NCBI GenBank assembly: GCA_937899725.1
Contig: CALCCA010000142.1
Span: forward strand, 1-36,120
Reading direction: 5' to 3'
Length of the DNA stretch: 36,120 nucleotides
Source of the DNA: an uncultured Halomicronema sp.
Lineage (GTDB): Bacteria > Cyanobacteriota > Cyanobacteriia > Phormidesmidales > Phormidesmidaceae
This document shows, in pieces, positions 12,058 to 15,024 of this stretch. Made by a program: the position numbers and the translations under genes. Numbering within the stretch: the first letter of the stretch is position 1; every line of letters begins with the position of its first letter. The notes under the pieces are model-generated. The model saw only the letters and a program-made list of their open reading frames with translations, ran no database searches and had not been told where the DNA came from.

Positions 12058-12183
12058 TATTGGCCAGTGGCGGTCGCCCATCCGGCAGCGAAATCACAGT
12101 GAAATTTCACATAGGACTTACGCAGAAGCCATTTTAAGAGAAGGATGCTTGAGCTGCTGACAAAGATAGTGGGCGTTGCTTAA

Positions 12184-12440
12184 TCAAGAGATGAATCTTG
12201 GCGGAACTGGAACCTCGTCGAACTTGAGGTAGTGAAGCAACAACCGAACCGAGTGCGCCAGCATTGCTACGGACTTGGAATAGCAAAGGGTCTTGCGATG
12301 CAGGCGAGCGAGATCGTGACGTAAGCGCGTATTTTCACCTTCCACCCGAGTCATGTACGTCTTGCTGACAATTTGGTCGCCCGCTGGAATAAAGCCGGGA
12401 TAGACCGACCAGCCATCAGTGACATAGAAATAGCATTGCG
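12184..12440 (-). pseudogene. IS1-family transposase, C-terminal fragment
   Basis: Conceptual translation from the insertion point reads CYFYVTDGWSVYPGFIPAGD, then QIVSKTYMTRVEGENTRLRH and LARLHRKTLCYSKSV, ending PVPPRFIS and a TGA. The second Asp (VTDGW) and the Glu (VEGENTRLRH) of the catalytic DDE set are intact. The fragment has no start codon of its own because the IS256-type element separates it from the N-terminal half. It cannot be expressed as a full transposase. Confidence 0.85.
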
Positions 12441-13736
12441 TTAGTGTCCCGATTTATTCGCCACCGAAGGGCGGTCATGTTTGGCATGTTCTAGTTGTCT
12501 GACTAGAAAGAAGAGAGCAAGGCAGCTTTGTTCATTGGGAAACGCCCCGACTTCATCGGCCTTAGCCCGGAATTCTCGAAAGAACCGTTCGAGTGGATTG
12601 GTGGTGCGGACAAAACGATGCCAAGTGTCATCGAGTTGATAAAAGGTAAAGGTCCGCTCTAGTCCCCATTCAAAGGCATGGATCGCATCGGGCTCAAGGT
12701 CTTGCCACTGATTGATAAACGCCTGCTGGCGCTGCTGTGCGGCCTCGTAGGTCGGCGCATCATAGATTTCATCAGCCTCCTTGAAGAGATCGGATTTACG
12801 CTGTTGCTTCGCGGTTTGGCGCTCCAGTGGCTGACCTTGCTCATCGGTGGTGGGCAAGTGTCGATACTTCAAGTAGGGGGCCATGCCGCGCACTTTATGG
12901 GTCATGCAGCGCTGTTGTTGGGTCTGAGGCAGGGTTTTGGCCATTGCCGCCAGTAACCCTTTGGTCCCATCGCTGACGACCACTTGGACCGTTTCCGGGT
13001 CGAGGCCACGGGCCATTAAGTGCTCAAAGAGGGATTGCCAGGCAGTGGTATCCTCTTGCTGAGCGATTTCGTAATGCAGCATTTCATGGGTGCCATCCGG
13101 CCACACCGCCATCACGGCCAAAATCACTCGGTCTTGGGCTTGGCGCACCTGGCGCTGATGACCCGAACGGTCAACTTTAACCGCCCCACTCGTGTACTGA
13201 ATCTCCACCCACACGCCATCCACAATGAGGACATTGGGCGTTTGCTCAATACGCGATTGACGCTCGGCTAGCATGCGCTCATGAACCCTCAGAGTGACTT
13301 GGTTGACAGCGTTGCGCTATAACACCTGACCCAACTGCCAGGATAGGAGCACCTGGAGATCCCGCCTCGAAAGCCCCAGCACATACAGATAGCACACCCA
13401 GTCGAGAAACCCCTGAACCCCTCGTTGGTAGCGCTCCAGGATTTGCCAAGCCCGCTCTCGATTGCGCGCCCGCAGTTTCGGCACTAGCAGCTCATCAATG
13501 CGGCCGTACTGAGTATCGACCACCCGACGGTAATAGCCTGAACGACGGGGTCTCAACTCCCCAAAGCCTTCCAACTCCTGCTTTAATTCTTCCACCAAGG
13601 CCGATTCCAACACCGCCTTCACCGTCTTCACCACGCTACTGCGGAGTTCCGCTTCTAAACTCTCGTTCAGCGATTGTTGAAACGTTTGGCTTGGGATGCG
13701 TTGGATTTCCTCGGTGCGTTCGGCTACGGTCGACAT
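12441..13736 (-). pseudogene. IS256-family (mutator-type) transposase with an in-frame TAG
   Basis: An ATG at 13736, preceded by AGGAG 9 nt upstream, opens a 139-residue N-terminal part ending in QLGQVL. A TAG at 13317-13319 follows, and the same frame then continues without shift (RNAVNQVTLRVHERM...) to 12441. Without that codon the protein would be about 430 aa, full length for the family. The catalytic DDE region lies after the stop: VDGVWVEIQY, VVVSDGTKGLLAAM and TNPLERFFREFRAK. The last two blocks are the mutator-family signature. An internal ATG at 13274 could start only the C-terminal 277 aa. The element is probably inactive, unless the TAG is read through or is a sequencing error. Confidence 0.85.
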
Positions 13737-13821
13737 GGTAGATCACTCCTGAGCGGCGGTAACCTACTTCTATCGCCTTTTGCAAGTGCGATTGTTCATG
13801 GCGAATAACTAAGGACACTAA
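12441..13821 (-). mobile_element. IS256-family insertion sequence, 1381 bp, inserted in an IS1-family gene
   Basis: The ends carry 23-bp imperfect inverted repeats (20/23 identical): 12441-12463 begins TTAGTGTCC, and 13799-13821 is its reverse complement partner. Both ends also share TTATTCGCCA. The element contains one transposase frame on the minus strand and nothing else. Its outermost three bases supply the transposase stop codon (TAA). The flanking CATTGC repeat is 6 bp, shorter than the 8-9 bp usual for the family; one mismatch would extend it to 7. Confidence 0.88.
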
Positions 13822-14274
13822 CATTGCCAACTTGCCACTCGTGCCCAGAGCGGCTGAAACGTCTTGGCACTATGGTCACCGAGCACCCAACCCAAAATCC
13901 CTTGGCGAAAGTGGTCAACGGCCGTCCACAGCCAAATTTTGTTTTTGTGTGCCCACAAAAGTTTCCCACTCGTCGAGTTCGCCGACCTCAGGCGTCGTTT
14001 CCGGGTCGTAAGCATCGGGGAGGTATGCGCCCACTTGTTTGACCCAGGTGATCACCGTCGTATGGTGCACCCCTTTGACCCGTTCGATCGCTCTAAAACC
14101 TCGACCATTGACATAGAGTGTGAGGCATTCTCGTCTGAGCTCATCGCTGTACCCGCGGTGAGGCTCATAGGCGTCGATAAATTGACGGCCACAAGCCACA
14201 CAGATGTGGTTTTGCTTACCTTTTCTTTGACCATTCTTACGGATGTGAGTCGCTCCGCACTCTGGACATGGCAT
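13822..14274 (-). pseudogene. IS1-family transposase, N-terminal fragment with frameshift
   Basis: The ATG at 14274 opens a zinc-ribbon (CPECGATHIRKNGQ, then ICVACGRQF: two CxxC pairs), followed by a helix-turn-helix region (GRGFRAIERVKGVHHTTVI) and ELDEWETFVG. At about 13946 the frame breaks. The family sequence continues one frame over as HKNKIWLWTAVDHF (first catalytic Asp) and GILGWVLGDHSAKTFQPLW, ending WQC where the IS256-type element begins. The break lies in an A-rich stretch (ACACAAAAACAAAA) and fits loss of one base there. The shift needed is not the -1 step used in programmed frameshifting of classical IS1, so I read it as a mutation. Confidence 0.82.
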
Positions 14275-14302
14275 CGCAAATTACCCTGGTTCATCTCCTA
14301 AT

Positions 14303-14476
14303 CAATAGTCCGGACAGTTTTGCTAACGAAGCTATAAGGCTTACAGGGCAATCATCCCAGCAACTGCCTATTTAAATCAAAGTTAGCTTTCAGGCCGACA
14401 TTGATTTAAATACTTCTAGCAACGAAGGCTCTACATTACAGGCGATGTGAGGAGCAGATTTCTGTCCGGAGTATTG
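14303..14476. repeat. Small structure bounded by 15-bp inverted repeats
   Basis: CAATAGTCCGGACAG (14303-14317) and its near-exact reverse complement (14462-14476; 14 of 15) bound 144 bp of noncoding DNA. CTAAT lies just outside on both sides (14298-14302; 14478-14482, one base further out). Inside is a second, perfect inverted repeat: TATTTAAATCAA at 14369-14380 and 14401-14412. Together these look like a MITE or a short element remnant. The left repeat could alternatively belong to the IS1-family end. Confidence 0.4.
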
Positions 14477-14481
14477 CCTAA

Positions 14482-15024
14482 TTATGCAACGCCAAAAATG
14501 CCTTCACCGATCTACGCCCCTTAGCTGATTTGAACCGCTTGAGATCGCTCCATCTTGCGGGCAATCACCTCGTCGATATCGCGCCCTTAACTAGTCTCAC
14601 CCAGTTGCAAGCACTCGACTTGAGCTGCAATGACCTCAGCGATCTCACTCCCCTCACGAGCTTGACTCACTTAACAAGGCTGAATCTGCGTAACAATCAG
14701 CTCGTTGATCTGACGCCCCTCGCCCGTCTCACCCAGTTGACCGAACTGAATCTCCATAACAATCAAATTGCTGATGTGACGCCCCTCGCGAGCCTCAGCA
14801 ACTTAAAAAAGCTAGATCTGGGCATCAACCAAATTGCTGACGTGACGCCCCTCGCGAGCCTGACTCACTTAAAAAGCCTGAACCTGAGCATCAATCAAGT
14901 GACCGACGTCGCGCCCTTAGTCAATCTGCAACATCTGACCGAGCTTGGGCTGTTTTGTAACCCGCTTAATCCGTTGGCACGGCTGCAGATGCACTGGTTA
15001 GTCAGAACTATCCGCCATCTCTAA
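14482..15024 (+). pseudogene. Leucine-rich repeat protein, 5'-truncated
   Basis: The frame encodes six tandem 22-residue leucine-rich repeats of internalin type (e.g. THLTRLNLRNNQLVDLTPLA, SNLKKLDLGINQIADVTPLA) and ends in a cap, TELGLFCNPLNPLARLQMH. Such domains bind proteins. The repeats run upstream past the only usable start (TTG at 14530): NAFTDLRPLADL is already part of an earlier repeat, and the frame opens only at 14482, next to the inverted-repeat structure and the broken insertion sequences. No signal peptide or effector domain remains. I infer loss of the 5' part through mobile-element activity. A TTG-initiated 164-aa protein cannot be excluded. Confidence 0.7.

Follow-up and report, generated by a model that had tools for sequence, protein, structure and literature searches.

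A decayed nest of IS1-family, IS256-type and MITE sequences in an uncultured Halomicronema

We report a locus that is very probably, and we say so with high confidence, a nest of ordinary mobile elements in a state of decay: an IS256-type element and a 174-bp MITE lie in an IS1-family element, and the IS1-family element lies in a leucine-rich-repeat gene. The locus belongs to a window of 36,120 nucleotides, by which we mean the whole stretch of DNA that was analyzed. Most of the interest resides in the relatives of two of these elements, namely an IS256-related subgroup with 7-bp target repeats and MITEs, and IS1 copies whose second reading frame is offset by +1; the rest is an ordinary nest. 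Our joint proposal is tentative, and we rate it slightly below an even chance. It holds (a) that the inner element is a member of a cyanobacterial IS256-related subgroup with its own 7-bp target repeat and its own MITEs, and (b) that the outer IS1 is a member of a mobile group in which the second frame mostly lies at +1 behind an A7C run.

Architecture of the nest

The IS1-family element at 12172-14493 holds two inserts, the IS256-type element (12440-13822) and the MITE (14303-14476). The features are as follows, with coordinates given as positions in the window.

12172-14493, minus strand: IS1-family element with ends GGCGTTGC..GCAACGCC; 754 bp without the inserts and one copy of each of their target repeats
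13915-14274, minus strand: upstream IS1 ORF (InsA-like part), from the ORF list and NCBIfam
12184-12439, minus strand: 3' part of the downstream IS1 ORF (CYFYVTDGW..VPPRFIS), from the joined frame
12440-13822, minus strand: IS256-type element, 1383 bp, in the IS1 transposase gene; terminal inverted repeats matching at 21/24 positions, like ends in relatives, and Pfam PF00872 in both ORF halves
13317-13736, minus strand: N-terminal part of the IS256-type transposase, from the ORF list, ending at an in-frame TAG (13317-13319)
12441-13274, minus strand: C-terminal part of the IS256-type transposase, in frame with the N-terminal part and with its stop codon inside the terminal repeat
12433-12439, no strand: left target repeat of the IS256-type element, GCATTGC, from the sequence; 7 bp are expected from relatives
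13823-13827, no strand: right target repeat of the IS256-type element, ATTGC, from the sequence; 5 bp, with 2 bp probably lost
14303-14476, no strand: MITE of 174 bp near the IS1 right end, terminal inverted repeats CAATAGTCCGGACAG / CTGTCCGGAGTATTG; two copies on contig C120 are identical at 174/174 positions
14297-14302, no strand: left copy of the MITE target repeat CCTAAT; the right copy is at 14477-14482

The outer element resembles the IS1 family in its transposase, length, ends and repeats. Specifically, the upstream ORF scores 117 bits against NCBIfam NF033558 (IS1), over the cut-off of 100. A 65-residue piece of the downstream ORF scores 45 bits, below the cut-off, and Pfam has no family for either IS1 piece. 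The length of 754 bp, the short inverted ends, the 8-bp target repeats and the division of the gene into two ORFs that overlap at an A-rich stretch are likewise IS1-like. IS1-family elements make target repeats of 8-9 bp, and we find exact 8-bp repeats in three flank pairs of the same genome and at both of two identical copies in Leptolyngbya sp. SIOISBB (genome G005).

A preliminary description of this DNA had read it as an IS1-type gene entered by an IS256-type element, and had recognized, on the minus strand, two pieces of IS1-family sequence with an IS256-type element, bounded by inverted ends, between them. Both observations are borne out. Excising the two inserts, each together with one target repeat (ATTGC for the IS256-type element, CCTAAT for the MITE), leaves 754 bp, and these align from 1 to 754 with uninterrupted IS1 copies, also 754 bp long, in contig C214 of the same genome (80%) and in G005 (L050, 81%). 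Those copies supply the empty IS1 element that the description had proposed to look for, and independent copies of the inner element, with like ends at unrelated sites, supply its second suggested check. The IS1 extent of 12184-14274 was too small: other copies in the same genome set the ends at 12172 and 14493. The description had also stated that the gene fragments rejoin. The peptide WQCYFYVTDGW is indeed restored on removal of 12440-13827; cutting out 12441-13821 alone, as had been suggested, does not restore the gene because one copy of the repeat remains. Beyond these points, the MITE, the in-frame TAG, the actual ends of IS1 and the disagreement between the outer flanks had all escaped the description.

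Could the IS1 and IS256-type sequences be a single conserved composite element, mobile as a unit? We found no evidence that supports this idea. The same 95 genomes were searched once with the inner element and once with the IS1 part (four and six candidates scored per genome), and, among the matches listed, the window is the only place with both elements. IS1 copies exist without the inner element, and relatives of the inner element sit at other sites with their own target repeats. Because the parts occur separately among the matches listed, we reject a composite that moves as a unit and give that reading only the faintest probability. The arrangement is thus best viewed as a nest.

The MITE lies 17 bp from the right end of the IS1 element, its right target repeat included. 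It has what is expected of a MITE: it is short, non-coding and too short for a transposase gene, and it has long terminal inverted repeats, target repeats of its own and several copies, some of them identical within the genome. The two C120 copies (L079:504-677 and L080:504-677) have their own 6-bp repeats, TACTTA and TCATAT, so that 6-bp repeats accompany all three copies found in this genome. These two copies lie near both ends of the 9.7-kb C120 contig. Genome G050 has two complete copies, one with a 6-bp repeat and one with none.

The IS256-type element and its 7-bp relatives

The inner element is assigned to the IS256 family by its transposase. Pfam Transposase_mut (PF00872) matches the two ORF halves with E values of 7.8e-38 and 5.1e-12. 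An intact relative from G005 (P0001) scores 194.1 bits against NCBIfam NF033543 (IS256), over the cut-off of 150, and the window's own 277-residue C-terminal part alone reaches 147.7 bits, just below it. One long ORF and inverted ends are further likenesses to the family.

The ORF is a single frame of about 430 codons interrupted by one TAG, at 13317-13319. Five translated relatives have serine (four) or phenylalanine (one) at this position, and on that basis we rejected the TAG as a family trait. The frame of one G005 copy (L029) is open across 431 residues. The sole other relative in the same genome, on contig C59, also has one TAG, at a different place, and the copy in G336 has one TGA. With the IS1 gene cut and the inner frame interrupted by TAG, neither transposase could be made whole from this locus by ordinary decoding. 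Thus, both transposase genes appear dead.

Among the matches listed, the inner element has relatives in 9 of the 95 genomes, its own included, and the best are the two G005 copies, at 77%. A contig scan for the inner transposase returned only those two G005 copies. A second close copy is absent from the genome of origin (6.99 Mb, 216 contigs), where C59 comes nearest at 65%; the element's ends therefore rest on relatives at 77% identity or less. To compare ends and target repeats, we tallied 23 rows: 17 gene-bearing copies, five short MITE-like copies and the window. Partial matches, for example those in G020, G043, G072 and at the contig edges of G030, were left out. An end pair like GTT[A/G]GTGTC..GACAC[T/C]AAC, with at most one mismatch per end, is present in 20 of the 23 rows, the window counted. 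The end pairs in the relatives therefore define the window element as 12440-13822, 1383 bp. Inverted ends had been described before, and they are there, matching at 21 of 24 nucleotides (88% complementary); the borders 12441-13821 and the flanking repeat CATTGC that went with them are dropped, on the evidence of the relatives, in favor of 12440-13822 and the 5-bp repeat ATTGC.

Target repeats in the tally are exact at 7 bp in 11 rows, 7 bp with one mismatch in two and exact at 8 bp in two. Three rows have no target repeat despite readable ends (G334a, G316 and G079m4), and in four the repeat is unreadable, one at a contig end and three for lack of an end pair. The remaining row is the window, with 5 bp. 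Could the inner element truly have duplicated 5 bp? The window repeat is exactly ATTGC when the relatives' ends are used; however, no other row among the 23 has an exact 5-bp repeat, as against the 11 with exact 7 bp and the two with exact 8 bp. We consider a genuine 5-bp duplication improbable. The left flank reads GCATTGC, and the simplest account is therefore a 7-bp repeat from which 2 bp, the GC at the right junction, would have been lost. The preliminary description had suggested decay or slightly different ends as the cause of the short repeat. Probably both apply: the two ends are each displaced outward by one base, and 2 bp seem to be missing from the right repeat.

The five MITE-like copies have the ends of the inner element and measure 97-201 bp (L028, L033, L038, L041 in G079 and L044 in G005). 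Three of the five have exact 7-bp repeats, one has a repeat with one mismatch and one has none.

IS256-family elements make target repeats of 8-9 bp. This was also the earlier expectation for the inner element, and it misfits the subgroup, in which 7 bp is the usual length and serves as a mark. Because the family is defined by its transposase, we do not hold repeat length against the IS256 assignment. In PMC7780238, ISCth4 and IS256 are reported with 8-bp target repeats, and a TGTAAA motif is given as a conserved feature of the family. By eye, TGTAAA is absent from the first and last 32 bases of the inner element and of the relatives displayed. The inner-element group differs from this picture of the family: its target repeats are mostly 7 bp long, and its terminal 32 bases lack TGTAAA. 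In our literature searches, no paper title had a 7-bp IS256 subgroup in cyanobacteria as its topic.

Reading-frame offset in the IS1 copies

In IS1 elements, a -1 shift at an A-run joins two ORFs. The window copy lacks this arrangement: its ORFs are offset by +1 at ACACAAAAAC, and its A-run is only A5. In the window's branch, 12 of the 16 rows (the window counted) have the second frame at +1, not at -1, according to a quick tree that was built without the A-run and in which the branch has a support of 80, not starred. We take the +1 offset as variation within the family because transposase, ends and repeats fit IS1.

We counted offsets in copies that have two peptide motifs, and copies without both were left out. 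Among 56 distinct copies so defined by motif, 19 are +1 (again with the window), 31 are -1 and six are in frame. The +1 label needs 10 changes on the tree, which carries a long-branch warning, versus a mean of 16.1 when labels are shuffled, and none of 500 shuffles is as low. The number of changes is small relative to the shuffles, yet it is still 10; the offset is therefore clustered but has repeatedly changed.

Two identical 754-bp IS1 copies occupy different sites in genome G005; both are +1 behind an A7C run, and their 8-bp repeats are intact. These features suggest recent movement, for which the transposase may have been their own or may have come from another source. A third G005 copy, with one extra base at the run, is scored -1. 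The +1 copies behind an A7C run comprise L142, L173 (in G005), L143, L144, L145, L172 and others. Small indels upstream of the A-run are also seen. In L046 (G032), one shifts the frame such that both ORF parts form a single open frame of 243 codons; in L174 (G005), the fused frame spans the A-run, but a stop precedes the run.

How might +1 frames be joined? A ribosomal -1 shift would not fuse them. RNA-polymerase slippage on the A-run could, and it would tolerate both offsets. According to the review PMC5009743, no IS elements with +1 ribosomal shifting had been identified, and several use transcriptional realignment with a +1 shift. Polymerase slippage is therefore the likelier route by which +1 IS1 ORFs would be fused.

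Outer flanks, proposed history and meaning

Two further features adjoin the IS1 element.

14494-15024, plus strand: 3' portion of a leucine-rich-repeat gene that IS1 interrupts; the 5' portion is on contig C140, with AAAAATGC, 8 bp, shared
12112-12171, no strand: left end (60 bp) of a further repeat, TAGGACTTACGCA..; it contains the left junction of IS1, a matching opposite end sits at the edge of contig C157, and TTCACA repeats flank it

We compared eight left and seven right IS1 flanks from the same genome; C73, with a degraded IS1 end, was left out. Exactly 8 bp are common to three pairs: C10/C27 (CGGTTTTT), C145/C2 (CAAAATTC) and C140/window right (AAAAATGC). Joining C140 to the window's right flank yields a 364-codon leucine-rich-repeat open frame, from which it follows that IS1 entered a leucine-rich-repeat gene. 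C140 has a second leucine-rich-repeat open frame as well. The window's left IS1 flank matches none of the seven right flanks compared. The flanks of the uninterrupted C214 copy do not match each other either.

The left neighbor has a history of its own. The TAGGACTTACGCA repeat has TTCACA on both outer sides (in the window and at the C157 edge, L119), and the site is empty in G002. In both G002 and G005, the genes now at the C157 edge come after the gene that lies to the left of the nest in the window. The flank pairing and the gene order therefore place the left and right neighbors of the window IS1 at two loci. An IS1 copy cut the TAGGACTTACGCA element, and a search of the assembly with one 22-base pattern did not find that copy's right junction; the sole match of the pattern is at the end of C16 (L118), without adjoining IS1. 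C16 has a 359-codon open frame near a TAGGACTTACGCA-type end, transposase-like by eye.

Given that the left flank is unlike the right, the window IS1 copy most likely also marks the place where two IS1 copies crossed over in a rearrangement, or where the assembly joined two loci. A mis-assembly would mean that two IS1 flanks were wrongly connected and that the true left neighbor of the nest is C140. That contig and the window's right flank have AAAAATGC in common and restore the 364-codon frame, and 268 bp of IS1 part the left flank from the inner element. Nine contigs (C10, C211, C145, C140, C69, C27, C105, C14 and C2) stop within 64 bp of an IS1-type end, the first five after 54-55 bp in common with the IS1 left end; contigs that end in IS1 are expected where a short-read assembler cannot resolve a repeat. 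However, the assembler did extend through the window IS1 copy, and extension through a repeat copy generally needs read-pair support. A crossover between two IS1 copies, moreover, gives an identical picture. We regard mis-assembly as a strong contender whose probability falls just short of one half, and both IS1-IS1 recombination and an assembly join fit the flank mismatch.

We propose the following history. The leucine-rich-repeat gene would first have received the IS1-family element, which made the 8-bp duplication AAAAATGC. Later, in either order, the IS256-type element would have entered the IS1 transposase gene and the 174-bp MITE the right end of IS1, and both insertions would have duplicated their own targets. 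An in-frame TAG interrupts the IS256-type copy, 2 bp have probably been lost from its right target repeat, and the IS1 copy most likely became the crossover point of the rearrangement or of the assembly join.

Bacterial genomes routinely contain insertion sequences that are nested and decaying. The nest itself therefore means little, and its value lies in providing the right borders for three elements. A caution for users of this contig is that it may fuse two loci at the IS1 copy. From the family side, the 7-bp IS256 subgroup and the +1-offset IS1 group provide small, testable points for understanding the geometry of transposase cutting and for understanding frameshifting.
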